A DNA stretch of 60,503 nt, taken from IMG/VR virus record IMGVR_UViG_3300021478_000004, positions 1 to 60,503 of that record, one strand, 5' to 3'. The stretch comes from a virus. The notes under the pieces are model-generated. The model saw nothing but the letters and a program-made list of their open reading frames with translations. It had not been told where the DNA came from and ran no database searches. Below are positions 8,329 through 55,852 of the stretch, piece by piece; the stretch's first letter is position 1, and every line of letters starts with the position of its first letter. Both the position numbers and the translations under genes were made by a program.

Positions 8329-10308
8329 CTATGCAGGCCGCTGTTGGCCCTGTTGCTGCCCCTGCGGTTGCGCTGGGGGCTGAAACAACTGTAGCGCCTC
8401 GGTCCACATGCGGTGCTGCAATTCAGCCGCGTCAAGCTGCGTCTGCGTCTCGTGCGCGTTGACCTGATGTTGCAGCCCCGCGGCATCGAGATGCACCTTC
8501 GCGCCCGCGACATGGGCATCGTGGATCGTCTTCTGGGCCATCGCGTCGGCTCGGCGTGCCTCGGCCGCGGTCTTGGCGTTCCTTACCGCTTCGCCTTCGA
8601 GAGCGAGCTTCTTTGCCATCTCCTTCGCTGGGTCGGCCTGCGGCGGCTTCGGCGAAAGCATCTGCAAAATCATGTTCTTGCGCTCGCGCGGCATCGGCGA
8701 GAGTTCGATCAAGACCTGGGGCGGGAATGTGCCGGGCGGATATCCCTTTAACGTGTCGTACGCGTCCTGCATGACGGTCTCGACGTCCGGCCCCTCTTCA
8801 AGGACGATGTTCACGTCGAGTGCGCCCAGAAGATTGACCATCGCTGGTCGCCCCCATTGGTCCTCTCCAAGTGCGTTCAACCAAATTCCTGCCTTTACTG
8901 GGTCGTTGTCGTTGATGATTGGCAACCACCGCTCTTTCGTCCATGACCGTTGTGCGGTCGTCCAAATGTCTCGATAGAGTTGTAGCTTCCATTGCCGATA
9001 CGCGAGTACGAACGGACCCAACTCGGCCATGCCGGGCTGGCGCAGCAGTTCCAACGCGCGCCCGGAAATGTTGGCCAGCGACGCGCCCTGAAGCACGGCA
9101 ATATTGGTTCCTGCGAAACTGTCGATTTCCTGACCAGCCTGTTCAGACATCCCATGGAATGCGGCGAGGTCCGTTGTCTTGTCGTCGGGCTCCCACTTTC
9201 TCCCCGGATTTACTTCGATAATTCCGTCCGGGCGAGCCTGCTCGATGCGAGCCTGCTCGACGTTGTCGACCGCGCCCTTCTCGGTAATCACTCGTCGGGT
9301 GTTCGCAAGATGCAATTCCTTGGACTTTGACTGATTGAACGAATCCTGCGGGCCTTTGAGTGCCCGGGCGAACCCGTAGCGATCCCCCTGTTGGTCGACC
9401 GCTGCCGAGAACATATTGAACGACGAAGCGCTATTTCCATCTTTATCGAAAAACGGAGAAATACCCTCGTCTAGCAAGACTGATGAAACGTAGAACGCCC
9501 AGCACCATTTGCCCTTCCGCTTATACCAGTGCTCTATGAGACGAAGGCTCTGGGTCGACGTCACGACCCACTTGTATTCTCGGTCGGCGTTGGTCGTGAG
9601 GTCCGAATCGCCCTGGATAAGGCCTCTGAGCACGTCCTCCTTATGGGGGAAAAGCTCGATTGCCTCCTCGACGTCTAGCCATTTCGACAAGCCCTCGTAG
9701 CGCCGATCATTGAAGTCGAGGCGGTAGGACCGAGGGTCATAGAAATATTCGTCTCCGATGACCCAATTGAGTTTGATGTCGTTTTCGCCGTTTTTCCCAG
9801 GCACCAGCGTACGCTGGACGCCGGCCACGCCGTCGATGCAGCACTGCAAAAGGCACCATGGATCTATGCCTTTCCAGTCGTTGCCGTCGAGAACCGAGCG
9901 GATGACCTGGGTAGCGATATCAGCCCCGGCTTGGCTTCGCACCGAGGTCGGCAAGGCTTTAGGGTCTGACCGAAGCCGCTCCACAAGGCCGACGATGCCA
10001 TTGATCTTACGATTCACCCGGGGCCAAGTGAGCACCGCCTGATGACGTCGTTTCAGGGTTTCAATCTGCTTCCCGTCCCACTGTATGCAATGGTAGTAGC
10101 AACGCGCAATCTTCTGTTCTTCGATCTCTTCGGATTTCGACCAGAGATAGTCTAGGTATTGCGTGCGCAGCTTACGCACGTCTAGGAACTGATCCTTCTC
10201 GTCGTCGTCCGTCTCGCTCACGGACGCGATCTTGTCGCGCTGTTGTGGGTCGCGAACTAGGCCCGTCAGCCGGGATCGGTCCCGAGATAGAAGCTCAGCT
10301 ACGGGCAT
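8329..10308 (-). CDS. Portal protein, P22 gp1 type
   Basis: 659 residues, the size of the P22-like portal class. Recognisable blocks include QYLDYLWSKSEEIEEQKIAR, RRHQAVLTWPRVNRKINGIV, and the crown-to-stem stretch DPWCLLQCCIDGVAGVQRT. Residues from about 560 form a long Ala/Gln-rich helix and low-complexity tail (PPAQPQGQQQGQQRPA), as in the P22 barrel. The dodecamer forms the DNA gate that binds terminase outside and the gp4-like adaptor below. It overlaps the preceding gene by 14 bases. Confidence 0.88.
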   Translation of the reverse strand: MPVAELLSRDRSRLTGLVRDPQQRDKIASVSETDDDEKDQFLDVRKLRTQYLDYLWSKSEEIEEQKIARCYYHCIQWDGKQIETLKRRHQAVLTWPRVNRKINGIVGLVERLRSDPKALPTSVRSQAGADIATQVIRSVLDGNDWKGIDPWCLLQCCIDGVAGVQRTLVPGKNGENDIKLNWVIGDEYFYDPRSYRLDFNDRRYEGLSKWLDVEEAIELFPHKEDVLRGLIQGDSDLTTNADREYKWVVTSTQSLRLIEHWYKRKGKWCWAFYVSSVLLDEGISPFFDKDGNSASSFNMFSAAVDQQGDRYGFARALKGPQDSFNQSKSKELHLANTRRVITEKGAVDNVEQARIEQARPDGIIEVNPGRKWEPDDKTTDLAAFHGMSEQAGQEIDSFAGTNIAVLQGASLANISGRALELLRQPGMAELGPFVLAYRQWKLQLYRDIWTTAQRSWTKERWLPIINDNDPVKAGIWLNALGEDQWGRPAMVNLLGALDVNIVLEEGPDVETVMQDAYDTLKGYPPGTFPPQVLIELSPMPRERKNMILQMLSPKPPQADPAKEMAKKLALEGEAVRNAKTAAEARRADAMAQKTIHDAHVAGAKVHLDAAGLQHQVNAHETQTQLDAAELQHRMWTEALQLFQPPAQPQGQQQGQQRPA

Positions 10309-14331: not shown

Positions 14332-15834
14332 TCACATCGTCAGCGCATCGAGATCGCTATAGTTCGAACCGCTGCCGCGATAGCCGCTGCTCGTGTTCTT
14401 CTCAGGTTGCACCGGCTTCTGCCCATCTATCATCGTGTCGAGCAGTTGCCCGATCAGCCCGCACGCGTCTACCTGATCGTCGTGAACTCCGGCCGGGAAC
14501 CGCAGCAACTCGCTTTCGAACTCGCCCCGCCACGCCGCCGCAACCGGCACACGCAAGCCCCGCGTCGCGATCAAGCCTCGGAACGACTGCGCTCGCACCG
14601 CCTTGTCGCCTCGGGTCGGAAACTGCTCTCGCAGGGTGTAGGCGTGGCGCTCGCGCATCTCGCGCTCCAAGAACGGCCCGACGCCGCTCTTGATCTGGCC
14701 GGATTCCTCGGCCCAACCCATCGGCTTCCACTTCTTGACCAAGTCGCAAAATACCTCGACCCATTCGTCGGATGCGGCTTGCTTCCGCCAGATGTCCAGC
14801 ATCCACGGATTGCTGTCAGGGTCGAGCGCGAGGACCGCGTGGACCGTGAAGTCGCCGCCACTCGATGTGACAGCGTAGTCTGATCCTCCGTATACCCGTA
14901 GGCTTTCCCGCGGCGGGAGATTGTCTACCGGGAGGAGCCATTCGCGCTTGAAATAATCTCCCGTGTCGGGAATAGGTTCTTGCTGATACAGCGCCGAGAA
15001 GTAGCGAGGGATGCTGTTGGCTCTAATTCGCTCTATCGCCGTCAACGGATAGCGATCAGGCCACAACGCCTCGCCAACGTCGCTTACGGCTGGCATTTTG
15101 ACGATTTCGAACTTGTCGCCGCCCGACGCCGCGTGCGAGATGATCTTCCCAGAAAGATCGTCGTCGTGCATGCGATGATTGATCAGGATTACCGCTCCGC
15201 CCGGCTCCAAGCGGTTATACGCGGTTCCGATATACCAGTCCCAGACTTCCTTGCGCTTATTCTCGCTCTGGGCGTCAGCCATCGAGGAAAACGGGTCGTC
15301 GATAAGAAGAAAGTCAGCGCCCTTGCCCATGAAGTGGCCGCCGACGCCGACCGCGTAGTAACCTCCTCCGTCTTGGGTGCGCCACTTGTTCTTGGCCTGG
15401 CTATCTTCCGCGAGGGACGTGTTGAAAATGCACTTGTATTGCGGGCTGTTGATCAAGTTTCTGACGTCGCGTCCGAAATCTGTCGCCAGATCGGCGCTAG
15501 CCGAAACAGAGATGAACTCTTTGTCGGGTTGACGCCCTAAAATATAAGCCGGCAAGCGACGAGAAGCCAATTCCGACTTGCCGTGCCGAGGAGGGAGCAG
15601 CAGCATCAAACGATCGACTTCGCCCCGCTCGACCCTCTCCAACTGTTCCGCTACCTTCCGATGAAATTCCGCGGCACGGTACTTCGGCAGCGTGTATTCA
15701 GTGAATGGAATCAGAGCCTTCCTCGCCATCCTGCGCTTGAGAAGCTCCTCGGCTGCGTCCAATGGCGATAAAGGCGGCAAGTTCTTCGTCTGCGTATTCG
15801 GTAATGTGTTTGCGATGCTCGACACGCATTTCAA
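14332..15834 (-). CDS. terL: Terminase large subunit
   Basis: 500 residues by the longest frame (TTG at 15834). The true start may lie up to 36 codons later, because the 5' end overlaps the small-subunit gene by 137 bases. ATPase: Walker A PPRHGKSE (81-88), Walker B FLLIDDPF (175-182). RNase H-like nuclease: YGGSDYA with D319 and HDDQVDA (451-457). It binds the portal, drives DNA into the head and cuts concatemers. The family can be of the headful-cutting kind, consistent with the circularly permuted assembly. Confidence 0.93.
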   Translation of the reverse strand: MKCVSSIANTLPNTQTKNLPPLSPLDAAEELLKRRMARKALIPFTEYTLPKYRAAEFHRKVAEQLERVERGEVDRLMLLLPPRHGKSELASRRLPAYILGRQPDKEFISVSASADLATDFGRDVRNLINSPQYKCIFNTSLAEDSQAKNKWRTQDGGGYYAVGVGGHFMGKGADFLLIDDPFSSMADAQSENKRKEVWDWYIGTAYNRLEPGGAVILINHRMHDDDLSGKIISHAASGGDKFEIVKMPAVSDVGEALWPDRYPLTAIERIRANSIPRYFSALYQQEPIPDTGDYFKREWLLPVDNLPPRESLRVYGGSDYAVTSSGGDFTVHAVLALDPDSNPWMLDIWRKQAASDEWVEVFCDLVKKWKPMGWAEESGQIKSGVGPFLEREMRERHAYTLREQFPTRGDKAVRAQSFRGLIATRGLRVPVAAAWRGEFESELLRFPAGVHDDQVDACGLIGQLLDTMIDGQKPVQPEKNTSSGYRGSGSNYSDLDALTM

Positions 15835-38249: not shown

Positions 38250-38341
38250 CCCCGCACCGCCCACCACATCGCCGCCGCGAACAACAGCGTGCCCGTAATC
38301 GCTATGATCGCGGCGATGTGCGGAGAAGGGTGGGGGGTCAT
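38246..38341 (-). CDS. 31-residue membrane protein, last gene of the late operon
   Basis: The ATG at 38341 overlaps the upstream stop (ATGA) and the frame ends TAG at 38246. MTPHPSPHIAAIIAITGTLL then FAAAMWWAVRG: one membrane helix. The overlap and the exact fit of the space support it. Confidence 0.55.
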   Translation of the reverse strand: MTPHPSPHIAAIIAITGTLLFAAAMWWAVRG

Positions 38342-42251: not shown

Positions 42252-42596
42252 TCATCGCCCTCGCGAAGTTGACGGCACGCCAGGATCGGGCGTGAACACG
42301 ATCTGCACCGCGACTGCTGCGGGAATGCCGGCCTTGGCGCTGACGGCCACCGCGGCAACCTGAATGGTTTTATTTGCATAGAAACTATTCGCGATGTCTG
42401 ACATGATCGCCACGGCGGCCGTTATGTCGAGCAGCGGATTCGTCCCCTCGGCAAGCGCTGCGGCCAAAACCTGCTGAAATGGAAATGCGTCGAGAAACTG
42501 AAGGAACTCGTTGGCTGGCTTCGTTTGGCCCGACGCAGGTTTGATGCCGGCTATGATCGCCTGGAGGTATTGGCCGATCGTCGAGAGGATCGTCAT
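42252..42596 (-). CDS. Small helical protein, unknown
   Basis: 114 residues. STIGQYLQAIIAGIKPASGQ, LLDITAAVAIMSDIANSFYA and AVAVSAKAGIPAAVAVQIVF: Ala/Ile-rich helices, possibly membrane-associated. Coupled to the holin candidate. Confidence 0.6.
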   Translation of the reverse strand: MTILSTIGQYLQAIIAGIKPASGQTKPANEFLQFLDAFPFQQVLAAALAEGTNPLLDITAAVAIMSDIANSFYANKTIQVAAVAVSAKAGIPAAVAVQIVFTPDPGVPSTSRGR

Positions 42597-42889
42597 GCTG
42601 GTCCCTTTAACGGGTGATCGATTGCCGGAGTCATCGCCGTCGCCGGAACGACTTTGACCCCATTATTTGCGGTGTTGACGGCGGCAATCTGAGCGGTTGG
42701 CGTATGCGACCGCGTCTTGTACCAAGCCAAGCCTGCGGCTACGGCTCCGGCCCCTATCATGACAATGTCGTTCGCGAACGATGATTGATCGGCGGAAGGT
42801 ATCAGTCCTTTGCTGGCCGCCCATGCCGCAATGCCTGTCGCGGCATAGCCGGCAACCGTGGTCAAAATGCTCTTGAGTTGCGGGTCCAT
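42593..42889 (-). CDS. Holin candidate
   Basis: 98 residues. Two hydrophobic segments (ILTTVAGYAATGIAAWAAS and ANDIVMIGAGAVAAGLAWY) with a short polar turn, followed by a soluble tail. Size, layout and position close to the endolysin suit a class II holin. No sequence family is recognised, so the call rests on context. Confidence 0.6.
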   Translation of the reverse strand: MDPQLKSILTTVAGYAATGIAAWAASKGLIPSADQSSFANDIVMIGAGAVAAGLAWYKTRSHTPTAQIAAVNTANNGVKVVPATAMTPAIDHPLKGPA

Positions 42890-42977: not shown

Positions 42978-43433
42978 TCAGTCATATTGTTCAAGACCGT
43001 TGTGGTTGATCACCGCCATCAGCGCCGCGGGGTAGTTCGGAGCCGTGGCGTAGCCGCATGCGTGCAGGGCTTGGGCGTAGGCGTCGGGGGACTTGGCATC
43101 GATGCAACGCTGATAATGCGGGGACGTGAGAAGCGCGGCATGGGCGTCGAAAGCAGCTTCAAGGGAAGGGTAATTGGCGAACCATTGTTGCTCGGCGACG
43201 TAGCGATGACCGATATACTCGTGGGTCAGGACCAGCCGAGCTTGCCCTGACGCGCGCTGCGCCTGGGTTGCCTTTATGCCAAAAGGATTGTTCACCCCCG
43301 ACAAATGCGCGCCATAGCCTGATTCTACAGCCCACTGAGCGAGCGAGATGGACACGAACGGCCCGCGCGGTGAAAACTTGGCGTGGCTCGCGCGGGCGAT
43401 TGGGATGATGGGGAGAAAGCGGGAATCGGTCAT
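42978..43433 (-). CDS. Endolysin, glucosaminidase-type
   Basis: 151 residues from the ATG at 43433. FVSISLAQWAVESGYGAHLS, GVNNPFGIKA is the glucosaminidase core with catalytic Glu in AVESGYG (E37); YIGHRYVAEQQWFANYPSLE, AFDAHAALLTSPHYQ is its second half. It cuts peptidoglycan sugars at lysis. No signal peptide, so it needs a holin. Confidence 0.85.
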   Translation of the reverse strand: MTDSRFLPIIPIARASHAKFSPRGPFVSISLAQWAVESGYGAHLSGVNNPFGIKATQAQRASGQARLVLTHEYIGHRYVAEQQWFANYPSLEAAFDAHAALLTSPHYQRCIDAKSPDAYAQALHACGYATAPNYPAALMAVINHNGLEQYD

Positions 43434-43658: not shown

Positions 43659-45944
43659 TTACGGTAGCGCACACGTCGGCATTTTGCCTTGCTGAAAGCA
43701 GTACATCGCAGGCAACAGAACCGACGTCCCGCCACTTCCGCCAGAAGTCGCCCCCGTCGTCGGGCTGACCCACGGCCAAGGATGCGTGCCGAAAAAAGAT
43801 GGCTTGGAGGCTAAGTAGAACGAGTTCGGCAGCGCTGTCGCCGCCCCGGTGCATGCCGTCGTCGCCGCGGAACCGAACGTATAGCAACTCTCAGCGCTAG
43901 ACACCCAATCCCAGTTAGCCAGCCTAGTTATTGTGTTGACTGTGGTCGGGTCGTACGAATTGATTCCGCCTGGAGCCGTGTACTCGCCGAGAATCCACAT
44001 CGGCACATCGTTTCCAGCAATCATAGCGTTATAATCAGTATTAGTCGTGACCTGGACCATAAAGGCGGTCTGCGTCTGGGTACAGGTATAGCCGGGTCGG
44101 CCTGACTCATTGATGAGCGTCTGCCCGCTATATCCTAAAACGTTGCCGACGAAACCGTTGTAGAAACTCGCCTTCTGAACCTGGATTGGAGCTCGGCTAT
44201 CCCCGCGATAATCGCCGTAGTAGATCGTGCCGCAACCGGTGCCGCTAGCCGAATACGTATTAAGCGGCGCGTATCCAGCATTCGGAGGCGATGATGCGCG
44301 AAGTCCCGAGAACCAATTGCGATACGCCGAAATAAAGATTGCTGAACCCCAGTAGGAATCGCCAGCGAAGTTAGCCCCGTAGTTTCCCTCCATAAGTCCT
44401 AGATGCGTCGAGTAGTTGTGGGCGTCGTTCCAACCAGACTCGGGCTCGTCTGGGTAAGTGAAACCGAAGCTATCGTCGCCATAGTTGTACGCTAGAACAT
44501 TGCCGCCACCAGCCGTCTGCATGACGTCATATTTGTTACCATACCACATGACATTGTTCTCAATTAAAGTTTCGGTCGAACCACTGCTGATCGCGGTAAG
44601 ATAGCCCGCGCCGCCGTTTTCCGGCACGGCAGCTTCGTGGATGAATGAATCGCGAATGACGTCGTGATAGCCCCAGGCGATGCAAATGGCGCAACCTGTC
44701 GACCACATCGTCTCGACGTTCTTTACCCAGCAGTAGGCGCACGGATTGCCGCCGCCGTTGCCAAGTCCAATGTTGGTATTGACCCCGCCCCACACGAACA
44801 TGTTCTCGATGCCGCCGCCATGCTGCGGCGTCTGGCTCCAGGTCGTCACCTGCGCGTCGCAACCGCTGCAAGTCGAGGATGTGTGATATGGGTACATGAT
44901 TGGGGTCACGAACGTAATTGTGGCCCCGCTGACGGAAGCAACCTCCTTTTGCTCAGTGATGTTTCTTCCTGTTGCCCTGGTAAAGCCGCTGAAATTATTT
45001 CCGACATAGGTGTTAGGATCGTTGGCGGAATTCTCATCAAGAATTATCAAATCCCCTTGATTGATAGCCGGGCTCGGCGTGGCCGTAAGCGTGACGCTGA
45101 AGGCCCCCTGCACGGCGTCGGCCGCGAGGTCATAGGACGTCCCATAGAAAGTGTTGTTGCGCCACATCGTAAAGAGGCTGTTTGAGCCCGTGCGCGTGGT
45201 CTGGACGAGTTGGGTCGCGGTCGAATCGGTGCAATAATTTCCACCATTGATTGTGACGAGCGTGCCGCCGACGCAGGCACGGATCGCGGTCCCGCCATTG
45301 ACTGGATTGAGGCTCGTGCTCTTTTGAGCACCTGCGCCCGAGCCGCGCATCGTGCATCCGGAGACATCCATGTGGATGCCGCCGTTAACACTGTCGATCT
45401 TGAATACGCCGAGCGAAAGCAGCACGACCTGACCGGCGGGGCAGGCGGCAAGCGCGTTGTTGATCTGCGCCGTGTCGTCACCGCCGCTCGGCGTTAGCGT
45501 CGTGGAGATTGTAGAACGGTTCGGGATGCCGTTTGCCGTCATCGCTATGGGCGAACCTGAACTACCGACCGTCTGTGAGGGGCTGATGGTGTAGGTTCCC
45601 GTGTCTCCCGCGCCGCTCCCCATGGCCGTTATCGTCGTGCCGCTCGTCACCCCTGGCCCGGTGATGGCCTGACTTGGCCCCAGAGCATTGGAATGCGAGG
45701 TCGTGACGGTCAGCGTGGTCCCGGCGATATAGCCCGAGAGCGGGATCGCCTGGAGCCCCGCTGTTTGCCAATTCGCCCATCCGTCTGCCGCAGTCGGGAG
45801 CAGCCCTGCAGTCGGATCGCCGCCTCCACCACCGCCGCCGCCCTGGAGAGTGATGCCTGGGATGAGGAATTGCGCCGCCGCCGAAGCTGCGACGAGCAGC
45901 CCACTAACGAGTGCGGCGCATAGCAGTTTGACGAACGCCCTCAT
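43659..45944 (-). CDS. Tailspike-like beta-helix protein with signal peptide
   Basis: 761 residues from the ATG at 45944, overlapping the upstream gene by 4 bases. Residues 1-25 are a Sec signal (MRAFVKLLCAALVSGLLVAA, SAAAQ). Then a Gly8 linker, a Thr/Ser-rich neck, and GGDDTAQINNALAACPAGQV, the start of a pectate-lyase-like right-handed helix that carries on through repeated short coils (TLIENNVMWYGNKYDV, GGGNVLAYNYGDDSFGF). Such spikes bind and cut surface sugars. Several Cys in the helix fit an exported protein. Confidence 0.78.
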   Translation of the reverse strand: MRAFVKLLCAALVSGLLVAASAAAQFLIPGITLQGGGGGGGGDPTAGLLPTAADGWANWQTAGLQAIPLSGYIAGTTLTVTTSHSNALGPSQAITGPGVTSGTTITAMGSGAGDTGTYTISPSQTVGSSGSPIAMTANGIPNRSTISTTLTPSGGDDTAQINNALAACPAGQVVLLSLGVFKIDSVNGGIHMDVSGCTMRGSGAGAQKSTSLNPVNGGTAIRACVGGTLVTINGGNYCTDSTATQLVQTTRTGSNSLFTMWRNNTFYGTSYDLAADAVQGAFSVTLTATPSPAINQGDLIILDENSANDPNTYVGNNFSGFTRATGRNITEQKEVASVSGATITFVTPIMYPYHTSSTCSGCDAQVTTWSQTPQHGGGIENMFVWGGVNTNIGLGNGGGNPCAYCWVKNVETMWSTGCAICIAWGYHDVIRDSFIHEAAVPENGGAGYLTAISSGSTETLIENNVMWYGNKYDVMQTAGGGNVLAYNYGDDSFGFTYPDEPESGWNDAHNYSTHLGLMEGNYGANFAGDSYWGSAIFISAYRNWFSGLRASSPPNAGYAPLNTYSASGTGCGTIYYGDYRGDSRAPIQVQKASFYNGFVGNVLGYSGQTLINESGRPGYTCTQTQTAFMVQVTTNTDYNAMIAGNDVPMWILGEYTAPGGINSYDPTTVNTITRLANWDWVSSAESCYTFGSAATTACTGAATALPNSFYLASKPSFFGTHPWPWVSPTTGATSGGSGGTSVLLPAMYCFQQGKMPTCALP

Positions 45945-46297
45945 GGAAGGGTCGTCCCGCTCCCTGCCGGATAGGTTTGAGCCACCCCGGCCGAGATCAA
46001 CGACAAATTGAACTTGTTGCTGGCCAGCCCGACGACTTGGAGGGCCGCGTCGCTGATGGACACGGCACCAGCCCAATTTGACGGGGAAACGACGCAATTA
46101 AACATCACTGTCCCCGCAGGCGCGGCAGAAGCCAAGCCGGACGCCGCCGCCGTTGGCGTGCATACGGTCCCCGTGGATGCAGGCCCCGACAAGGTAAAAC
46201 TCGGGATAGTCAGCGATGCGGCATGCGCTTTGAAGCGACCTGCGGTAGGAACTGACAGCAGTGCGAGTAGCGCGGTCGACAGAAGGAGCTTTCTCAT
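45941..46297 (-). CDS. Exported small beta protein of the tail cassette
   Basis: 118 residues with signal peptide (MRKLLLSTALLALLSVPTAG). Mature part SLTIPSFTLSGPASTGTVCT and NWAGAVSISDAALQVVGLAS is beta-rich with two Cys. It resembles single modules of phage fibres. Coupled by TGATG. Confidence 0.65.
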   Translation of the reverse strand: MRKLLLSTALLALLSVPTAGRFKAHAASLTIPSFTLSGPASTGTVCTPTAAASGLASAAPAGTVMFNCVVSPSNWAGAVSISDAALQVVGLASNKFNLSLISAGVAQTYPAGSGTTLP

Positions 46298-46605
46298 CAC
46301 TTCGGCCCCGGGACTGGCGCGGGCGCTGGCGGTGCAGGCGGGGCAGGCGGGGCAGGCGGGGGATTCTTCGCCTTCTCCAATTCGTCTTTCAGCTTGACGA
46401 CTTCCGCTTGGGCGCGTGCCAACAGGATCGCCTGTCCGGCTTCTCGCTCGTGTTCTGCTGCAAGCTGGTCCTCGAAGCTCTGCTTCATCGCTGTGATATC
46501 TTCGCCCGTCTGCACGGCTATCATCCCATTTGGCGCGGCGTGCGCGTAGTTCGCGGCAAGGATGATGCCGACTGCGCCGTATTTGATTGCGTGTTTCATT
46601 TGCAT
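46297..46605 (-). CDS. Exported coiled-coil protein with Pro-Ala-Pro tail
   Basis: 102 residues. Signal peptide MKHAIKYGAVGIILAANYAHA, coiled coil AMKQSFEDQLAAEHEREAGQ, and a PPAPPAPPAPPAPAPVPGPK tail made by a 9-base DNA repeat. Extended Pro-rich tails can span the periplasm. Role unknown. Confidence 0.65.
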   Translation of the reverse strand: MQMKHAIKYGAVGIILAANYAHAAPNGMIAVQTGEDITAMKQSFEDQLAAEHEREAGQAILLARAQAEVVKLKDELEKAKNPPPAPPAPPAPPAPAPVPGPK

Positions 46606-46622
46606 TTTTCCAGTTCTCCTAG

Positions 46623-49157
46623 TCACATCCCCATTACGGTCCAGTTGCCTAGCTCATTACAGTGAGCCAGCGTGGCGTGAGTTCCATTGGCCGAGATCGT
46701 CACACCAGCATTGCTCGGCGTATTCGCTAGATTGGTCAGCATATTAGCAAAAGCTCCGGAGAGACCAGCGGTTGAGCATGGGGGGAACGTCGTGAAATTG
46801 GCCGGGGGGTTGCCGAAGATGCCGGGCCATTTCAACTCGGCTATGGCTGCGGCTCCCCCGACATTGGTTGAGTTGATTCCTTGCAGAAGACCGCTGCCGC
46901 TGTTGACCATTTGGAATTCAAATCCACCAATAGCGGTATTGGTCTTGATATATTCCGGACCCCACAATATTTCACTACAAAGGTCGGTGGCGCAGCCTGC
47001 ATTCGTTCCTGCAACCATCTTTATAGCGGGACCAGTCACATGATTGCCAACAAGCAGAGCCGTCACAGCGAAATCAATGTTGAGTGCGTTCAACCATGCC
47101 GGGGTTTCCAGCGCTCCGGCCGGCTGCTGGCTTGATATGCGAAGACCATACTGACCCTGTGTCGATCCGAGATTCTCAATGTCGTCAAACCCGGCGAATG
47201 TGCCTCCAGGGGTATAGACAGCTATATGATGCTGATAAGCCACCACATAAGGGTAAGGAACAACCGCGTACTCGATGGCGTCACTGACGGCCCAGGCAGA
47301 AGGCGTGCCGACACTTTCGAAAACGATTTGTCCGGTGATAGTCCCGAAGTTCATTATCAAAGCGCAGGGGGCTATCGTGTAGGTTTTAATAGTTCCGACG
47401 CCAATACCCGAGTAACCGCCCCCTCCAGAAGTATTAGGAGAATTGACGGTCAAATGGGTTGGGTCATCATTGCTGATGATTTGATACCACGATTTCAGCG
47501 GGCCAAGGGTCGTCCCCGGCGTACCATTGAACGGCGCACCCGTATATGTGTCCGCGTCGAGCGCAATGCAGCCAATATTACCATCATTGCCACCAACCAT
47601 GTTATGGGTCCAAGTCGTGCCTGACCCAGTAAAAGTGGCCCCGGAAATGGATGTGACTGTTCCCGTGGTATAAGTTGGCTGTGTGAGGTCGACAGCCCAT
47701 CGCCCCTGACCAGATTGATTGGCCGTGTTCATCTGAATTAGAAGAGCTGGTGTGACGGTGACGCCTGTGGTGGCGGCGACAAGAACAGAGAAACCGGTAT
47801 AAGAGCCCCCGGGAGTCGCGATAGTTGCAGATAGGGAGTCGCCAGCGGTGTAGTTCTTGCCAGGGGTTTGGACGCTGTTTGGTTCTATGAAGGACACAGA
47901 GGTCACAACGCCGCTAGCAATGATGATGGTGGCTTTTGCCAGGGTGCCCGTACCGCCGGCGAGGGCGACATTGGTGTAAGTTCCGTCGCACGTTGATCCT
48001 CCACCTGCGCAGGTTCCCGAAGTGATCGCCCCGAACGTCGCAATTATTCCGTTGTTGTAATTCGCGCGAACGATGCCTGAAATCGTGTTCGTTCCGCAGG
48101 CAGTGATTTGCATCGCCGTTTTGGTATCTTGCGAAGACGCGAATTGCTGAGCAAAAATGACCCAGTCTCCGACGTTACACCCTGTGTTGTCGACGACCGT
48201 GACCGTCTGAACGGTTTTTGCTCCAACTATAGCCTGCGTTGTGACGGTGTTCACGGTCGATTGTGTCGGTACGACAGTTATCGTGGCTAGTGTCAACGCG
48301 CCCAGGGTTTGCTGGAGCAGGTTGACGTCAGTAAATCCTTCGCCCTCGTCTCCAGCTATCGGGCCGTTATAAAAATACACGAACGTCGTGTTGGCTGCAC
48401 AATCGCTTTTTCCGCCGTAACACGTTATCTGATCACCCGTAAGCAACCTCTGCCCGGAGGCGAGATAAGTGCCCTGAATCAGCAATGCCTGCATCGTGGT
48501 TTTAACTGAATTGGTTCCATAATATAATGATGAGAAAATTGCATCTCCTTGAGTTACTGATTGCTGGTCCCAAATACAAACATTATCATGGAATCCGGAT
48601 GTAGGGAGGAGAACATTGTTGCCTACACAACTGAATTCGTTGGAAAATATGTCAGTGGTAAGTCCTGACGCGTTGGCATTTGGCCCCTGCGTAAAAATAC
48701 CCCCGGGCAGAGTCCCTGTCCCCAGCGTAAGAATGCCGGCCCCATATTTGATCTGGTTGTTGTCGCCAAGAAGGAGGTTTCCGCTAGACGAAAGCAGGCC
48801 GCTGTTAGCGCTCACGTTGAGGAAAGCGACATTGCCGATCGTCCCCGTGGTCGCTGGAAACGTGATCGTCTTCGAGCCCAGCGCGCCTGTGGTCGGCTGC
48901 AATACAATCGTACCGCTCGTCGCATTCCCCATCGTGATCGAGCCGAGCGTGCCGCTCTTGCCGAGTTGCAGGCCTCCGGGAGAGGTATAGACGACATTGC
49001 CGCTATCGCCTCCGAGGGAGAACGCGCCGCCCGTAGCCGTGAGACCTCCCGTAGGGGAGGCCGTAGCGGGGCTACCGCCGTTCCGCACCGACTGCGCAAG
49101 CGTCGGCGACGCCAGCAACAGGCATACGACCATGGCGAATAGAGGCTTCATCATCAT
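46623..49157 (-). CDS. Large tail fibre protein A, with signal peptide
   Basis: 844 residues from the ATG at 49157 (ATGA overlap). Signal MMKPLFAMVVCLLLASPTLA. Its N-terminal repeats (GNVVYTSPGGLQLGKSGTLG) are like fibre shafts. The body shares long stretches with the protein at 52795: GTYLASGQRLLTG, CYGGKSDCAA, PIAGDEGEGFTDVNLL, IGCIALDADTYTG, GYSGIGVGT. The ending HCNELGNWTVM is common to both. It holds one extra repeat-like segment (about 420-540). A likely receptor-binding or enzymatic fibre. Confidence 0.78.
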   Translation of the reverse strand: MMMKPLFAMVVCLLLASPTLAQSVRNGGSPATASPTGGLTATGGAFSLGGDSGNVVYTSPGGLQLGKSGTLGSITMGNATSGTIVLQPTTGALGSKTITFPATTGTIGNVAFLNVSANSGLLSSSGNLLLGDNNQIKYGAGILTLGTGTLPGGIFTQGPNANASGLTTDIFSNEFSCVGNNVLLPTSGFHDNVCIWDQQSVTQGDAIFSSLYYGTNSVKTTMQALLIQGTYLASGQRLLTGDQITCYGGKSDCAANTTFVYFYNGPIAGDEGEGFTDVNLLQQTLGALTLATITVVPTQSTVNTVTTQAIVGAKTVQTVTVVDNTGCNVGDWVIFAQQFASSQDTKTAMQITACGTNTISGIVRANYNNGIIATFGAITSGTCAGGGSTCDGTYTNVALAGGTGTLAKATIIIASGVVTSVSFIEPNSVQTPGKNYTAGDSLSATIATPGGSYTGFSVLVAATTGVTVTPALLIQMNTANQSGQGRWAVDLTQPTYTTGTVTSISGATFTGSGTTWTHNMVGGNDGNIGCIALDADTYTGAPFNGTPGTTLGPLKSWYQIISNDDPTHLTVNSPNTSGGGGYSGIGVGTIKTYTIAPCALIMNFGTITGQIVFESVGTPSAWAVSDAIEYAVVPYPYVVAYQHHIAVYTPGGTFAGFDDIENLGSTQGQYGLRISSQQPAGALETPAWLNALNIDFAVTALLVGNHVTGPAIKMVAGTNAGCATDLCSEILWGPEYIKTNTAIGGFEFQMVNSGSGLLQGINSTNVGGAAAIAELKWPGIFGNPPANFTTFPPCSTAGLSGAFANMLTNLANTPSNAGVTISANGTHATLAHCNELGNWTVMGM

Positions 49158-49912
49158 TGATAATCCGCGCTTATGTAGGCCGTGTCCGTGCCGGTGGTGA
49201 ACGTGAACGGATTCGCAGCCGTCGACACCAGGATCACGATCCCGGTTCCGTATTGTCTGGGGAATGGAATGCGATCCAGCGAACAACCCATCGCACCAGC
49301 GGCGAACTGGCAACTATCAAGCACCTGCGCTCCTGTGAGCGAGCTACCGGGGACGGTCGTAGAGTTGTACGCGATACACCATCCCGCCGCGCCACCCACC
49401 ACGTTGCAGTAGAATCCGTAGAGGTTCCCGGCCGAGGCCTTGCAGATGTGCGAGGCCTCCATCGCCGTGCTCGAACATGTGCTCGTCGCCGCGGACGATG
49501 CGCTCGATGGCAGTTGATTGGCCGCCGTAGCAGCGCCATTCAGCGTTCCAAGATTAAATGTCGGAGTCGCGGCAAACGCCGGAAGAGTGCTACCAGCCAG
49601 AGAGGCAAAGATCGGATTGCTGGACGAAAGGACCGACCCGCCCTGCATCAGCACGACGGCGAGCGGGACGCCTCCGGTCAGTCCTTGGACTGCGAGGCCG
49701 TTTGTTCCCGGGGTTCCGGCTGGATTTACTGACGCCAGGACGGCACATGCTGCACCGTCACAGATAGCGCCGTTACCAAATAACTTGCTCGCCCCGTCCG
49801 TCCCAAATCTAAATGGGGTAGTCGAGCCGGGATTGGCTAAAAATGTCGTCTGTGCTAGCGCTGGCGAACTCAGCCCTAGCGCCAACAGAATCGCGGCGAC
49901 CTTCAGTCTCAT
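49154..49912 (-). CDS. Exported fibre/tail protein
   Basis: 252 residues from the ATG at 49912. Signal MRLKVAAILLALGLSSPALA. Mature part begins QTTFLANPGSTTPFRFGTDG, Cys in NGAICDGAACAVL, and beta-rich remainder ending FTTGTDTAYISADYQ. The 'STTPFRFGTDGASKLFGNG' stretch recurs in fibre N-termini of alphaproteobacterial phages. Coupled on both sides. Confidence 0.7.
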   Translation of the reverse strand: MRLKVAAILLALGLSSPALAQTTFLANPGSTTPFRFGTDGASKLFGNGAICDGAACAVLASVNPAGTPGTNGLAVQGLTGGVPLAVVLMQGGSVLSSSNPIFASLAGSTLPAFAATPTFNLGTLNGAATAANQLPSSASSAATSTCSSTAMEASHICKASAGNLYGFYCNVVGGAAGWCIAYNSTTVPGSSLTGAQVLDSCQFAAGAMGCSLDRIPFPRQYGTGIVILVSTAANPFTFTTGTDTAYISADYQ

Positions 49913-50106
49913 TGAAACGGCTCCGCTAGTATGAAGATATATTGGCTGTTGCAAGGGTCGCTGAAATCAAACGAGTTCGAGCACGCAGGAGGCGTTCCTC
50001 CCGTCGCGACGATTCCTTGGAGCAGAAATTGCGCGATGGTGTCCGTGCTCCCGAGGATCGAGGCGCAGACGCCGATCAGCAGGGCGGCGATAAAATTTCT
50101 CTGCAT
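49909..50106 (-). CDS. Exported 65-residue tail-cassette protein
   Basis: Signal peptide MQRNFIAALLIGVCASILGS, TDTIAQ. The mature part is only 40 residues: LLQGIVATGGTPPACSNSFD with two Cys, then SQYIFILAEPF. Coupled by overlaps. Confidence 0.6.
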   Translation of the reverse strand: MQRNFIAALLIGVCASILGSTDTIAQFLLQGIVATGGTPPACSNSFDFSDPCNSQYIFILAEPFQ

Positions 50107-52352
50107 CAGAAGAACTCGACGACGATTATCAAGCCAGGCCCGCCGTTGCCGCCCGCGCCGGGAACACCGCCGTTGGTCATGGAACCGCCACCGCCACCGC
50201 CGGACGCGATCCCTCCGAGACCGCCGTTGCCGGCCGTTCCAGATATTCCCGAACCGCCGCCACCCGCGCCCGTACCGGCGGCAAACAACGCGGTTCCCGC
50301 TCCGGTAATCCCAGGATTCCCGGAAGAACCGGCCGCGCCGCCAGTTGCGCCAGACTGGTTTGCACCCGTGCCAAAGAGCGCGCCGCCGTTGCCACCGGCA
50401 GTGGCGGCATTAGCCGCTGAAACTCCGCCGCCAGCACCGCCGCCAGCACCGCCGTTGTAGGCGAGGAATCCGACCCCTCCGAGGGCTCCATTAGCGCCGA
50501 TGCCGCCCGCCGACCCGGAGTATGTGGTGGTCGCACTAGCGCCGCTGCCGCCTCCGGGAGCCCCGGCGGTGCCGTTGGTTGCGCTGGTGGCATTTCCACC
50601 TTGGCCGGAAAGACCCGCGCCACCACCACCGCCTGCGGCCGCAGCTAGTTGTCCTCCAGCGCCACCGCCACCGCGTATCCCTGCGAGTATTATGGGGCCA
50701 GGTGCGCCGAATGAGCTATTGCCTACCGCTGAAACGCCGTTGCCTCCGGCCGTCGTATTGGCCGTAGCCGCTAGGCCACCCGTGCCACTGATGCCGACGG
50801 TCATGGTTTGCGAGGCTCCAATTACGGCCGCCGTGAACCTGCCGACGTTCAGGCTTCCGCCGCCACCACCGCCAGCGCCCGAAACTGCTGTCGAAGCAAC
50901 TTGCAGAGCTCCACCGCCGCCCCCGCCGCCGCCTCCATAGGCATAAACATCACAGATCACCATTCCAGCGGTCGGCGTATAGGTCTGAGTGATAGCCGCC
51001 CAAGTGATGACGAACGTGCCGCCCGTTCCCACCCCTGACGTGCTTCCCTGCGTCGATGGATTGCTCGTGGGGAGAACCGTGCAGCTTCCCGCTGTCGTAA
51101 CGGCTAGCGCTGTGATCGCTCCGGCGCTGGCGGTGACGGTCAGGACGGGCGCAGTCGAACACGTCCCGCCCGTCGTCGACACGGTGATCGTATCGTTGGT
51201 GACGTAGCCAGACCCCACTGCCGCGACGGCGGCCGATCCGACTTTCGCGAGCTGCGAAAAGGTTTGGATGTTTGGCGCGTGATGAATGACGCTCGATGCC
51301 AGTATGCCGGAATCCTGAAGCGTCTGTCCGCCCGTGCCGTTGAACGACACGAGGTTGCCGCTTACCGAGGAGCCTGGGCCTGACGCCGTACCCAGCGTCA
51401 CGGAGGCGGAAGGGAATGTGTATGTGAAGCCCGCCGCTCCAAAGGCAAGCGTGGTAGTCCCCGCGCCCGTGGTCGTCAGCGGGCCGCCGAGCGTCAGCGC
51501 CTTGCCGTTGATCGACGTGCAGGTGATGTTCGGGGCCGTGAACGTGCAATCGCCGCCGAGGGTAAAGGTGCTCGGCGCTGCGCCAGCCCCTCCGCCCTCC
51601 ACGAGAGAGCCCGCGGCAAGCGCGGCGCTCGACGCCCATGTGGTGGCCGAACTGAAATAGGAAATACCGCCGCTCGTGCCTGCCACTGTGAAGGCTGGGG
51701 TCGTGGTGGGCGTCGCGACGCTGATCAATCCACCAGCGAAGCTGGCGCTGGTGACGGTTCCTGTTCCTCCGGGAGCTCCGCCGTCTTGCAGCAGTTGCCC
51801 CGTCGCCCCGCTGAACGTTGCGATATGCCCGCTCGTCGCGCTCGGTGGCCCGCGCACATAAGGACCACCCCCGCATTGCCAGTTAGTTCCGTCGAACGCG
51901 ATACCGACCCCTTGGTTCTGTTGCAGCACGACCGTCGCCGAACCGCAAATCGTTCCCGTCGTGGGGGTGATCGTTTCAGCGCCTGCGCCGGTATTTACAA
52001 TGTTGATGAAATTGTTGGCGACGAAAGACGCTGTTGGCAGGCTCGGCGCGCGAGGGGTTCCGTCAGAAAGGATGACCAACTTGCCACAATCGGAGGCAAG
52101 GAACGTGTACGCGCTCCCGGCCGCCGGGGCATTGGGGACGACGGCCCCGCTAACCGTCCCGCTCGTGGTGATCGGTCCGCCGGAGACGCCGCAGGACGTG
52201 GCGACCGAGGTGACGGTGCCTGTTCCGCCGCCGCCTCCCCCGCCGCCGCTGCCCCCACTGCCCTGCCCGAGGGGAACCGGCGGCCAGTTCTGGGCGAGCG
52301 CCGATGTGGCGAACAGCGCAGCCGCGAAGAGAGCGGCGATTATCCGCTTCAT
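50106..52352 (-). CDS. Glycine-rich tail fibre with signal peptide
   Basis: 748 residues. Signal MKRIIAALFAAALFATSALA, then a Gly/Ser linker and GTGTVTSVATSCGVSGGPIT, a classic phage fibre shaft motif. Shaft repeats continue to about 450. The C-terminus (from about 480) is a polyglycine domain (GAGGGGGGSLNVGRF, GGGAGGGVSAANAATAGGNG) closing with GGPGLIIVVEFF, the signature of Gly-rich fibre tips like T4-type adhesins, where Gly sandwiches hold variable receptor loops. Confidence 0.8.
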   Translation of the reverse strand: MKRIIAALFAAALFATSALAQNWPPVPLGQGSGGSGGGGGGGGTGTVTSVATSCGVSGGPITTSGTVSGAVVPNAPAAGSAYTFLASDCGKLVILSDGTPRAPSLPTASFVANNFINIVNTGAGAETITPTTGTICGSATVVLQQNQGVGIAFDGTNWQCGGGPYVRGPPSATSGHIATFSGATGQLLQDGGAPGGTGTVTSASFAGGLISVATPTTTPAFTVAGTSGGISYFSSATTWASSAALAAGSLVEGGGAGAAPSTFTLGGDCTFTAPNITCTSINGKALTLGGPLTTTGAGTTTLAFGAAGFTYTFPSASVTLGTASGPGSSVSGNLVSFNGTGGQTLQDSGILASSVIHHAPNIQTFSQLAKVGSAAVAAVGSGYVTNDTITVSTTGGTCSTAPVLTVTASAGAITALAVTTAGSCTVLPTSNPSTQGSTSGVGTGGTFVITWAAITQTYTPTAGMVICDVYAYGGGGGGGGGALQVASTAVSGAGGGGGGSLNVGRFTAAVIGASQTMTVGISGTGGLAATANTTAGGNGVSAVGNSSFGAPGPIILAGIRGGGGAGGQLAAAAGGGGGAGLSGQGGNATSATNGTAGAPGGGSGASATTTYSGSAGGIGANGALGGVGFLAYNGGAGGGAGGGVSAANAATAGGNGGALFGTGANQSGATGGAAGSSGNPGITGAGTALFAAGTGAGGGGSGISGTAGNGGLGGIASGGGGGGSMTNGGVPGAGGNGGPGLIIVVEFF

Positions 52353-52362
52353 GAACTCAGCC

Positions 52363-52767
52363 TCAGTTGTTGGTGTAATAGAGTACGTCTAGCGTCGCGC
52401 TCCCGCTGACGGCGATGAACCGCATAGCCTGGAGTTGGACGAGCGATCCTCCGTAAACAGCAGGTCCGATAGTCCAGAGGTTACCTAACGTCGTCGTCGG
52501 ATTGGTCCCGTCATCCAACATTCTGATGGACGCAGTTTCGACCGTAAACTCCGCTATCGTCGCCGTAGGAGGAACTGTTAGCGCCACTACGGCTCCCGAT
52601 GTGATCGTCAGTTGCTGATGGGTGTTCGGCCCAGCCGACTTGAACATATTGATAGGCGCGGTAGCTATGAGACCTCCACCGCCCGCGCCAGTGTTGTTTT
52701 GCGCTGCGGACGGCGCGGCGGAGATCGCAAGCAAGATCACCGCGAGAAGCGGCTTGCGGAGTTTCAT
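52363..52767 (-). CDS. Exported beta protein of the tail cassette
   Basis: 134 residues. Signal MKLRKPLLAVILLAISAAPS, AAQ. Mature part ATAPINMFKSAGPNTHQQLT, TATIAEFTVETASIRMLDDG and SATLDVLYYTN reads as one small jelly-roll-like module, as in fibre-associated proteins. Confidence 0.65.
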   Translation of the reverse strand: MKLRKPLLAVILLAISAAPSAAQNNTGAGGGGLIATAPINMFKSAGPNTHQQLTITSGAVVALTVPPTATIAEFTVETASIRMLDDGTNPTTTLGNLWTIGPAVYGGSLVQLQAMRFIAVSGSATLDVLYYTNN

Positions 52768-52794
52768 GTCTTGGATTCCTTCAGTCGGAGGCCC

Positions 52795-54852
52795 CTAGTT
52801 GGCCATCACAGTCCAATTGGTCCCGTTGCAATGCGCCTTGACGGGTAGGAAGGCTCCATTGCTGGAAATCGTCGCGCCAAAGGGGGTGTTTACGTTCGCG
52901 AGCATCTCGGCCGTCGATCCTGAGAGCGCGCTGGAGCAAGCCGGGAATGTGGAGAAATTCGTCGGCGTCGTCGTGACAATTCCCGGCCATAGCAGTTCGG
53001 ACTTGACTGTCGCACCGCCTGCGACGACGCCCGAACCGATCGCCTGCAAGAGACTATTTGACCCTTCAGTCATGTTGAAGTCCATACCCTGATTGGCGGT
53101 ATTCGGCCGAATATAAGCTGCACTCCACTGTATTTCACCGCAATTATCCGAGGCGCAACCATCAAATATCCCCTGCGCCATCTTGATCGCTGGCCCGGTC
53201 ACATGGGTTCCGACGAGTAGCGCCGTGACGGAAAAATCAATGTTCAACGCATCCAGCCAAGCCGGAGTCTGCAGTGCGCCCGCAGGCTGTCGCCCGTTTA
53301 TCCTGATGCCGTATTCGCCTTGCGCGGAACCAGTATTTTCAATATCCTCAAATCCCTCGAATGTTCCGCCAGGCGTCCAGCTTTGGATGTGATATTGACT
53401 GGCGACAATGTAGGGAAACGGAACAATTGCCGTCTCTACGAGATCACCCACAGCCCATGTTGAGGTCGAGGTTTCGAGGACAACAAGACCAGTTACGGAG
53501 CCATTGGTGTTTCCTAGGTATAGTATTTCGGCGCATGGATAAATTTTGTAGGTGTGCGTGGTTCCGACGCCAATGCCGGAATAATTTCCGGCCCCGGCGG
53601 TGTTTGGAGAGTTCACGCCAAGATGCGTCGCGTCGGTGAAATTGATAATTTGGTAGTAAGAATGCAGGGGTCCGTTTGCTGCCGGAGCCACACCATTGAA
53701 CGGAGAACCCGTGTATGTATCTGCATCGAGCGCGATGCAGCCGATATTGGTGGCATTGCCGCCTACCATATTGGCGGCCCAAGTCGTTCCTGATCCGGTG
53801 AAGATATTGCCGGCAATCGAAGCAACCGTACCCGTCGCGTATGTCGGCTGGCTCAGGTCTACCATGACCCGGTTCTGACCTGTCTGGAATGTAGAGTTGA
53901 AGGTGAGAACCTTGGCCGGGGTAACGGTGACGCCACTAACGTAATTGGCCCTGACAATGCCTTGAATCGTGTTCGTCCCGCATGCGGTGATCTGCATCGC
54001 GGTCTTGGAATCCTGCGCGGAAGGAAGCTGCTGGGCCAGCACAACCCACTGCCCGACGACGCAGCCGGTGGAACTGGCTACCGTAATCGTCTGGGCAGTT
54101 TTAGACGCCGCGATGATCTGAGTGGTGGTCGTGTTGACGGTAGATTGCGCGGGTTGCGTGCCGGTAATTGTCGACAGCGACAGGAATCCTTGCTGCGAGA
54201 GCAGATTTACGTCGGTAAATCCGCTTCCCTCATCACCCGCAATTGGCCCGCTCGCAAAGGTGACAAAGGTCGTTTTGGCGGCGCAGTCGCTGGACCCTCC
54301 GTAGCAAGTTATTATCTCCCCCGTCAGAAGCCGCTGTCCGGACGCGAGATAGGTTCCATTAATGTCCAACGCCTTCATTGTCGACTTGGCTTGCGTCGTT
54401 CCGAACGACAGCGACGAAAATATCGCATCCCCATTAATTGCGTTGATGTTGATCTCTGCGCAGTTGGCATCCGTAAACCCAGGGGTCAGCGTCGCGTTGG
54501 TGACGCCACAGGTAGCGCTGATTGATGTATGGTTGGTTGGTTGAGCAAGAACGTCGGAATCGAACCCGACGACATTCACACCCGCTCCTATGGATGAACT
54601 TCCCAAATTGAGATACGCGGCCGTGCCGCCGATTATGACGAACGGCGATGGCGCGGCTATGGTGGCTCCCCAGCCAGCGCCGAGGCCGCTCCCGGTCTGC
54701 TGCGCGACCGACAACAGCGACGCATCGGTCGCCGAACGCTCTGCCGACGTGCCGTTGCCGATGACGTGGCCGGACTTTATCGTCTGCGCATGCGCGGAAC
54801 AGACAAATAGGATCGCGAAGATAGCGGCGGCGATGCGTGTGATTGAGGTCAT
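52795..54852 (-). CDS. Large tail fibre protein B, paralogue of the 46623 protein
   Basis: 685 residues from the ATG at 54852 (ATGA overlap). Signal MTSITRIAAAIFAILFVCSA, HAQ. KSGHVIGNGTSAERSATDAS is a common fibre start. The body matches protein A over most of its length (GTYLASGQRLLTG, CYGGSSDCAA, PIAGDEGSGFTDVNLL, IGCIALDADTYTG, AHCNGTNWTVM). Front parts differ. The pair may have different receptors, or one may be a spare formed by duplication. Confidence 0.78.
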   Translation of the reverse strand: MTSITRIAAAIFAILFVCSAHAQTIKSGHVIGNGTSAERSATDASLLSVAQQTGSGLGAGWGATIAAPSPFVIIGGTAAYLNLGSSSIGAGVNVVGFDSDVLAQPTNHTSISATCGVTNATLTPGFTDANCAEININAINGDAIFSSLSFGTTQAKSTMKALDINGTYLASGQRLLTGEIITCYGGSSDCAAKTTFVTFASGPIAGDEGSGFTDVNLLSQQGFLSLSTITGTQPAQSTVNTTTTQIIAASKTAQTITVASSTGCVVGQWVVLAQQLPSAQDSKTAMQITACGTNTIQGIVRANYVSGVTVTPAKVLTFNSTFQTGQNRVMVDLSQPTYATGTVASIAGNIFTGSGTTWAANMVGGNATNIGCIALDADTYTGSPFNGVAPAANGPLHSYYQIINFTDATHLGVNSPNTAGAGNYSGIGVGTTHTYKIYPCAEILYLGNTNGSVTGLVVLETSTSTWAVGDLVETAIVPFPYIVASQYHIQSWTPGGTFEGFEDIENTGSAQGEYGIRINGRQPAGALQTPAWLDALNIDFSVTALLVGTHVTGPAIKMAQGIFDGCASDNCGEIQWSAAYIRPNTANQGMDFNMTEGSNSLLQAIGSGVVAGGATVKSELLWPGIVTTTPTNFSTFPACSSALSGSTAEMLANVNTPFGATISSNGAFLPVKAHCNGTNWTVMAN

Positions 54853-55430
54853 CTCTGATACCATCCACCGCTAGTTAGCGGATAGAACGTCTTCGCGCCG
54901 CCATCCACATCGATCAGCGCCACGCCGTTCGCGACCGCCGCCGCCGCGGAAAAGCCGTCGAGCGTTTCTCCGGAAGACGGGACGAATGTTATGTTGTTCG
55001 TATTGGCGTCATAGGTCAGGTCTTTGACGGTAATCGGCAGTCCGTTGCCGTAGCGCAAGGACGATGCAGGAAGATTGATCGTGGACGGTCCGGAAGGCGA
55101 TTTCTGAAGCAAGATGGTGGGGACATCGGTCGGTGTTACCGCTACAGCCCCTGCCGCCGTCACCGTCCTATAAGCGATGTTGCCGCCGCCTCCGCCTCCC
55201 CCGCTACCGGCCAGAGACGCAGCAGTTACGTAGTTCCAACCTCCGCTAGCGGTATCGTAAACCGCGACAATTTGCGTTGGCGTTTGTCCGGGAGCCAGCG
55301 CGAGCAACTGATAGTTAGGCTTGATCGTCCAAATGCCGTTCGCTTTGGCGACGGTGATGAACGCGCCGCCCTGCACCAGCGCCGGGAAGGGAATGCGGAC
55401 GTTGACGCGGATGTTGGCGGGAAGGGTCAC
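54849..55430 (-). CDS. Tail/fibre attachment protein
   Basis: 193 residues from the GTG at 55430, which overlaps the upstream TGA as GTGA; a longer frame is shadow. TLPANIRVNVRIPFPALVQG, IWTIKPNYQLLALAPGQTPT, a Gly7 linker and VKDLTYDANTNNITFVPSSG. Its beta-rich modules resemble proteins that dock fibres on the tail. No signal peptide. Confidence 0.68.
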   Translation of the reverse strand: MTLPANIRVNVRIPFPALVQGGAFITVAKANGIWTIKPNYQLLALAPGQTPTQIVAVYDTASGGWNYVTAASLAGSGGGGGGGNIAYRTVTAAGAVAVTPTDVPTILLQKSPSGPSTINLPASSLRYGNGLPITVKDLTYDANTNNITFVPSSGETLDGFSAAAAVANGVALIDVDGGAKTFYPLTSGGWYQR

Positions 55431-55852
55431 GGGCCATGCCCTCCGAAATGAACCGGCAGATTCCCGATCAGGATTTGTCGCGCGTCTTGGCCCGCGACGT
55501 CCTCCAGCCTCATAAACACGTCGTAAGTTTCGGCTCGGCGCAGCGTTTGCATGATGGTGTAGGGGATTTGCACCTGGATCGTGCCCACGTCGATGATCGC
55601 GAGATAGTTTGACAGCGTCGCTAAAATACGCGGCTCTCCGGTATCGTTGTCGTAATATGGCGAGGAAAATTGTCCATTGTGGCCATGACGATGCCTCGGC
55701 GGGGATATTTCCAAATAGATCGAATACAGAGGATTCCCCGATCCATCGGTTAGCGTGATCAGGTCGCCCGTCTGGTCGTCGGCAATCTGTGCCGTCCAAA
55801 CCCAGCTTTCTCGGTTGCTGATCGCGGGGAAGTTTACAGGGTACTCATACAT
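55427..55852 (-). CDS. Tail protein, beta-rich
   Basis: 141 residues. VNFPAISNRESWVWTAQIAD, DGSGNPLYSIYLEISPPRHR and LSNYLAIIDVGTIQVQIPYT, then AETYDVFMRLED are typical of small baseplate-type proteins of podoviruses. No signal. Coupled to the next gene by GTGA. Confidence 0.7.
   Translation of the reverse strand: MYEYPVNFPAISNRESWVWTAQIADDQTGDLITLTDGSGNPLYSIYLEISPPRHRHGHNGQFSSPYYDNDTGEPRILATLSNYLAIIDVGTIQVQIPYTIMQTLRRAETYDVFMRLEDVAGQDARQILIGNLPVHFGGHGP

Follow-up and report, generated by a model that had tools for sequence, protein, structure and literature searches.

Signal peptides of capsid cement, tail hub and fibres suggest two-compartment virion assembly in a group of tailed phages

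Signal peptides in a soil phage and its relatives

We analysed the virus record IMGVR_UViG_3300021478_000004 of IMG/VR, a sequence of 60,503 bases taken as one window (hereafter the window), from a soil virus infecting bacteria. It carries Sec signal peptides (SPs) on nine consecutive genes of its tail cassette and on the gene of its capsid cement protein, and in related phages an SP also precedes the tail hub. We propose, with a probability of about 60%, that the virion would be built in two compartments, a core assembling in the cytoplasm and outer proteins being exported by Sec and joined to it at lysis.

Genes were called with a codon-score caller with start selection, and SPs with a rule-based caller of our own (n-, h- and c-regions and an Ala-x-Ala site) in place of SignalP. 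The terminase, portal, major capsid protein (MCP) and head-closure proteins of the window had PHROG matches, and its closest annotated capsid relatives are those of the Pseudanabaena phages Pam1, Pan3 and Pam5, the record CBW1004C-Prop1 and Rhizobium phage RHph_Y1_10. Alphaproteobacterial plasmid records (Caenibius, Rhizobium, Paracoccus) hold portal relatives, so the host is probably a Gram-negative alphaproteobacterium; no Acidobacteriota prophage was found among 297 genomes searched.

The nine cassette genes follow one another head to tail without a break on the minus strand, starting at 54852 and ending at 43659, and no further credible gene intervenes (Table 1). An earlier reading of the window by a model (the original prediction) had described nine Sec SPs in a row, and this stands: the starts are real and, by our rule, every N-terminus has a basic end, a hydrophobic core and an Ala-x-Ala-like site, some of the cleavage positions in Table 1 being our own reading and not the first choice of the rule. 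The codon-score caller recovered eight of the nine genes with the same starts and signals and shortened the one at 45941-46297. SP calls were made in 8 of 286 non-gene open reading frames of the window (2.8%) and in about 21 of 465 same-strand genes of at least 90 amino acids (about 4.5%) from 15 related phages without an SP on the cement protein; at such background rates, nine in a row are not due to chance.

The two large fibres are paralogous, as had been proposed (58% in alignment), and have no relatives in the viral contigs, genome contigs or phages searched; no collection or locus that we searched gave relatives of the Gly-rich protein or the small cassette proteins. The beta-helix gene alone matches a tail family of PHROG, and this over a limited length (phrog_38233, 2.5e-12), the other genes giving no significant match. 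Its product shares 50% identity along its length with a protein of a phage record (L013) that has four consecutive SP genes, a different backbone and, by the cement profile, no cement relative, and shows weak PDB profile matches to pectinesterase, pectin lyase and polygalacturonase. Like the L013 protein, all its cellular relatives (L014-L019; Acidobacteria, a deltaproteobacterial metagenome-assembled genome, Phytohabitans) bear an SP or a lipobox, so the gene may have been captured from a secreted protein. An AlphaFold model of this protein reached a predicted local distance difference test (pLDDT) score of 41.7 and was not used. On a Sulfotelmatobacter contig (L017:1302-4609), possibly a prophage, two SP genes overlap, one of them akin to the beta-helix protein, also in the N-terminal segment.

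A tenth signal on the cement protein

A further SP, missed by the original prediction, lies on the gene at 5352-5876, with AGGA just upstream and a predicted cut before LVTDPNK. By position and modelled fold its product is a cement (capsid decoration) protein. The gene follows that of the MCP (5942-7105), an order also found in L027, L028, L031 and L036, and cement is the gene after MCP in Pam1 and Pam5. An AlphaFold2 model from a 52-row alignment had a pLDDT of 89.8, and its best four Foldseek matches (7eel_H, 7dn2, 8h89 and 7dou) are the cement proteins of Pam1, KHP30, GP4 and KHP40, with E-values from 1.3e-4 (Pam1 7eel_H) to 3e-3 and a probability of 1.00, the template-modelling scores being just 0.45-0.52 by query length. 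The label "Rz-like spanin" attached to an SP-less cement member (phrog_20969, E 4.8e-7) was set aside, since gene position and fold indicate cement; phrog_20969 matches the cement family (L057:9959-10375) and may be misnamed.

A cement profile scan of viral contigs gave 252 relatives, of which 80 were fetched and 60 non-redundant ones used. An SP is present in 20 of the 60, in nearly every case behind a ribosome site; the other 40 start directly without an SP, typically with MATGTAGTTARQ..HYLR. In the cement tree, 18 of the 20 SP forms fall in one group and two lie elsewhere. The only cement relative found in the isolated phages searched was the SP-less one of RHph_Y1_10. KHP30 was considered as a precedent for an SP-bearing cement protein and rejected, its gp15 (126 amino acids) having the same length as the PDB chain, so that no leader is removed.

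The hub signal as a removable module

The original prediction had noted that the three neighbours starting at 55859, 55427 and 54849 lack a signal, which we confirmed, and had taken them for docking proteins. The latter holds for the products of 55427 and 54849, with no SP in 12 relatives, and must be revised for that of 55859, a hub or collar protein that is SP-less in this lineage only, its clade mates carrying SPs. The window hub matches phrog_8763 (tail protein) with an E-value of 1.2e-33, and six SP-bearing orthologues match it with E-values of 7e-31 to 1.4e-65. Examples of the predicted cut in such orthologues are ..LPARA^AGTLPIALTQQ, ..APVWA^AGTINLSLSQQ, ..SPAFS^AGTLY, ..PSAHA^AGTIPLA and ..AAFA^QGVIPVALAQQ.

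A wider scan yielded 69 non-redundant hubs, 46 with an SP and 23 without. The residues after the predicted cut are AGT (23), QGT (8), AGS (4) or similar, and the SP-less hubs continue after Met with AGT (10) or AGS (9). Because the SP-less hubs thus start at the cleavage point predicted for the others, the hub SP is, judged by these sequences, a removable module before an unchanged virion protein. Its state changes about seven times on the hub tree, at least three of them on supported branches. The window hub and those of L187 and L189 fall within an SP-bearing clade, which suggests that the lineage of the window lost its hub SP.

Signals are confined to outer proteins

We compared these genes with a core set comprising terminase, portal, scaffold, MCP, adaptor, head completion, head closure, ejection and the two docking proteins. 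Among ten phages with an SP on cement, none of about 66 core and docking homologues bore an SP, and five of seven hubs did. For same-strand genes of at least 300 amino acids, SPs were called in 16 of 104 in SP-cement phages versus 2 of 147 in others; these SP genes include a tail-spike-like one (L137:9205-11655, phrog_7458). SPs were also more frequent downstream of SP-bearing hubs (14/116) than of SP-less hubs (1/50). Also among the large SP genes of SP-cement phages are a GDSL esterase (L028:12737-14320) and a GH5 cellulase (L036:15696-17459), both located between portal and scaffold. A beta-helix-like protein with a possible twin-arginine translocation (Tat) signal (TRRK; L036:14006-15580) is found in the same gap, which in related phages appears to be an insertion spot for genes of exported-type enzymes.

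Cysteine content follows the signal

If the signals work, the proteins that carry them fold in an oxidising compartment. Hub cysteine counts are even and at least two in 40 of the 46 SP-bearing hubs versus 5 of the 23 SP-less ones, a count, like those that follow, that does not correct for descent; one hub region reads NNFTNAHC in the window and GICDNTHC or NSCADAQC in SP hubs. Cement proteins with two or more cysteines make up 14 of 20 SP forms versus 1 of 40 without an SP. Across genes of at least 150 amino acids in eleven SP-cement phages, cysteine reaches 1.40% in SP genes versus 0.76% in non-SP genes, and among non-zero counts in these phages 24 of 29 are even in SP genes (p 0.0003) versus 63 of 143 in the remainder. 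The large members of the window cassette hold 16, 14, 12, 9 and 8 cysteines, versus 28 in the 6010 residues of 18 non-SP structural genes.

Proposed assembly and competing explanations

In the assembly that we propose, DNA-filled heads and the tail core (MCP, portal, adaptors and ejection proteins, and in the window also the hub and docking proteins) would form in the cytoplasm. The cement and the fibre and spike set, together with the hub in most relatives, would be synthesised with Sec signals that signal peptidase I removes at the Ala-x-Ala site, and would then fold, gain disulphides and stay stored in the periplasm. The two pools would mix once the envelope is opened by holin and endolysin, and the finished particles would then take up the outer proteins, so that virions become complete as lysis proceeds or shortly afterwards. 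Such late attachment is physically plausible, since decoration proteins and fibres of other phages can be added to completed particles in vitro. Of the three meanings suggested by the original prediction, export of the fibres with addition at lysis is the best supported and is widened here to cement and hub, the export itself being read from sequence. With slightly less confidence, we extend this proposal to a widespread group of tailed phages, whose cement, hub and fibres would be exported and oxidised beforehand and joined at lysis, and in which single proteins would switch route by gain or loss of an SP, their mature N-terminus unchanged.

The most serious competitor, unlikely as a whole and possible for individual genes, is that export of the cassette proteins has nothing to do with the virion: infected cells or lysogens would secrete them or bear them on the surface (as glycan-degrading enzymes, decoys or surface modifiers), their genes being carried close to those of the tail. 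The secreted or lipobox-bearing cellular relatives of the beta-helix protein, the esterase and cellulase between portal and scaffold, and lambda lom and bor, which code for exported proteins in the tail region (for Lom, see also PMC12309495), all fit it. It leaves unexplained the SP of the tail-spike-like protein of L137 and those of cement and hub orthologues, which are structural in relatives, and in its pure form as a moron or secretome reading we rejected it on the cement and hub SPs. We consider it improbable that the signals merely delay assembly, with precursors held by chaperones or partly exported and the unexported cytoplasmic fraction entering virions: close relatives without a signal indicate that cytoplasmic assembly is possible in principle, but the even cysteine numbers of SP versions suggest oxidative folding, and an uncut signal would sit directly before the conserved hub N-terminus. 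There is still less in favour of a hydrophobic N-terminus retained as a capsid or tail docking helix or as a membrane anchor. The cement model does predict a hydrophobic N-terminal helix; against this, SP-less orthologues manage docking without such a helix and start precisely where the cut is predicted, the Ala-x-Ala site is conserved while the hydrophobic core varies, and cysteine parity tracks the signal. We rejected a docking helix on the orthologue N-termini and this conservation; the suggestion that the N-termini are kept as tail anchors is likewise disfavoured. Least probable by far is an artefact of wrong starts or compositional bias. Ala-rich, high-GC genomes do yield false calls (besides the non-gene reading frames, 3-40% of shuffled N-termini), but ribosome sites stand directly before the SP starts of cement genes, the SP architecture is conserved over dozens of diverged orthologues, and the core genes of the same genomes bear none; the core-gene controls and ribosome sites led us to dismiss chance and wrong starts.

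Several points weigh against two-compartment assembly. All SP calls rest on our home-made rule, and the virion role of the cassette proteins is assigned from place and sequence style, several of them having no family match. SP-bearing and SP-less hubs intermix among close relatives, so export is not essential for hub function. The cement SP has essentially one main origin, and its cysteine statistic is therefore not independent; tree-based cysteine pairs point in the same direction but are too few, leaving tree-corrected sign tests underpowered. Finally, disulphides stabilise the tail and fibre hubs of the PhicrAss001 virion, and the paper describing them mentions no signal peptides (PMC10172136); disulphides of tailed-phage virions, as in this crassvirus hub, can form without a reported export step.

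Comparison with known systems

The short-tailed cyanophages Pam1 and Pam5 share with the window the order terminase large subunit, portal, scaffold, MCP, cement, adaptor; the Pam1 cement fold matches that of the window (7eel_H; cryo-electron microscopy exists for Pam1), and the Pam5 tail fibre is homologous to the window hub. Unlike in the window, the cement, tail fibre and spike genes of both phages have no SP. Directly after the Pam5 tail spike, gp19 (L041:17837-18146) has the SP MRALSLTLAAGLLAASPAAA^F, which makes it a candidate for export in a phage that has been isolated. RHph_Y1_10 and a Rhizobium tumorigenes plasmid prophage have the same MCP-cement module, the prophage also a homologous hub, but neither bears an SP on cement or hub.

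Virion proteins of the filamentous phages M13 and fd (pVIII, pIII) are Sec precursors that are cleaved by leader peptidase and form disulphides in the periplasm. These phages differ in that they assemble by membrane extrusion without lysis, and have no homology to the window. Packaging in tailed phages is cytoplasmic, and the terminase, portal, MCP, holin-like and endolysin genes of the window do not fit extrusion of the filamentous type. Lambda Lom is an SP-bearing protein coded in the tail gene region (PMC12309495), but lysogenic conversion proteins of the Lom and Bor type are host envelope proteins and not orthologues of virion parts. SP-endolysins, such as that of UFJF_PfDIW6, are phage lytic proteins exported by Sec before lysis (PMC8951688); they differ in being lysis enzymes and no component of the virion. 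The open-access full-text literature that we searched gave no account of tailed phages with SPs on their cement, hub or fibre proteins, and the nearest parallel is that of the filamentous phages, with no published tailed-phage precedent found.

In textbook accounts, tailed-phage assembly is wholly cytoplasmic. If two-compartment assembly is true, the host export machinery, signal peptidase and periplasmic disulphide machinery would all serve as factors in the assembly of tailed phages, no infectious particle would be complete before lysis, and folding with disulphide bonds would be open to receptor-binding proteins; if borne out, this would amount to a new logic of assembly for these phages. 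It predicts that virion hubs begin with AGT or QGT and the window cement protein with LVTD, and the orthologue pairs with and without a signal provide a natural experiment. SP proteins in phage head or tail modules should not be annotated automatically as morons or spanins.

Further features of the window

Table 1. Coordinates of the genes discussed, with predicted signal peptides (^, predicted cleavage position)
Feature	Coordinates	Strand	Signal peptide	Remarks
Cement (capsid decoration) protein, 174 aa	5352..5876	-	MFSKLIKSALAVLLLACFAFVPASA^LVTD	directly after MCP gene; AGGA ribosome site
Major capsid protein (MCP)	5942..7105	-	none	phrog_334
Scaffold position	7162..8208	-	none	by synteny
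Portal protein	8329..10308	-	none	phrog_156
Terminase large subunit	14332..15834	-	none	phrog_38
Holin-like	42593..42889	-		lysis module adjoining cassette; Phage_holin_10, below cut-off
Endolysin	42978..43433	-	none	
Beta-helix spike-like protein, 761 aa	43659..45944	-	MRAFVKLLCAALVSGLLVAASAAA^Q	16 Cys
Small exported-type protein, 118 aa	45941..46297	-	MRKLLLSTALLALLSVPTAGRFKAHA^A	cleavage site less clear (AHA^A)
Small exported-type protein, 102 aa	46297..46605	-	MQMKHAIKYGAVGIILAANYAHA^A	
Large fibre 2, 844 aa	46623..49157	-	MMMKPLFAMVVCLLLASPTLA^Q	14 Cys
Exported-type protein, 252 aa	49154..49912	-	MRLKVAAILLALGLSSPALA^Q	8 Cys
Small exported-type protein, 65 aa	49909..50106	-	MQRNFIAALLIGVCASILGSTDTIA^Q	
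Gly-rich fibre, 748 aa	50106..52352	-	MKRIIAALFAAALFATSALA^Q	9 Cys
Small exported-type protein, 134 aa	52363..52767	-	MKLRKPLLAVILLAISAAPSAA^Q	
Large fibre 1, 685 aa	52795..54852	-	MTSITRIAAAIFAILFVCSAHA^Q	paralogue of 46623-49157; 12 Cys in mature part
Docking domain protein, 193 aa	54849..55430	-	none	no Cys
Tail docking protein	55427..55852	-	none	none in any relative found; position of Pam5 "receptor-binding protein"
Tail hub/collar protein, 330 aa	55859..56851	-	none	starts M-AGTLPIALTQQ

Further SPs that the original prediction had missed lie on small genes near the lysis region, at 36433 on the plus strand and at 38338, 40254 (lipobox) and 41192 on the minus strand. The gene at 38338-39201 encodes a 287-amino-acid SP protein with a weak DUF16 match and no relatives found, 40254-40583 a small lipobox protein (LLAGC) that is a possible outer-membrane spanin, and 41192-41521 a small SP protein with a relative in L134. 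A 469-amino-acid protein without a Pfam or PHROG match (10812-12221, minus strand) is kept between terminase and portal in relatives. On the same strand, 23937-24170, 24623-25225 and 26910-27512 encode a DNA methylase fragment, an MT-A70 methyltransferase and a weak GcrA-like regulator. A 17-kb contig (L020, L043) with identical portal and cement is probably the same phage in another assembly.

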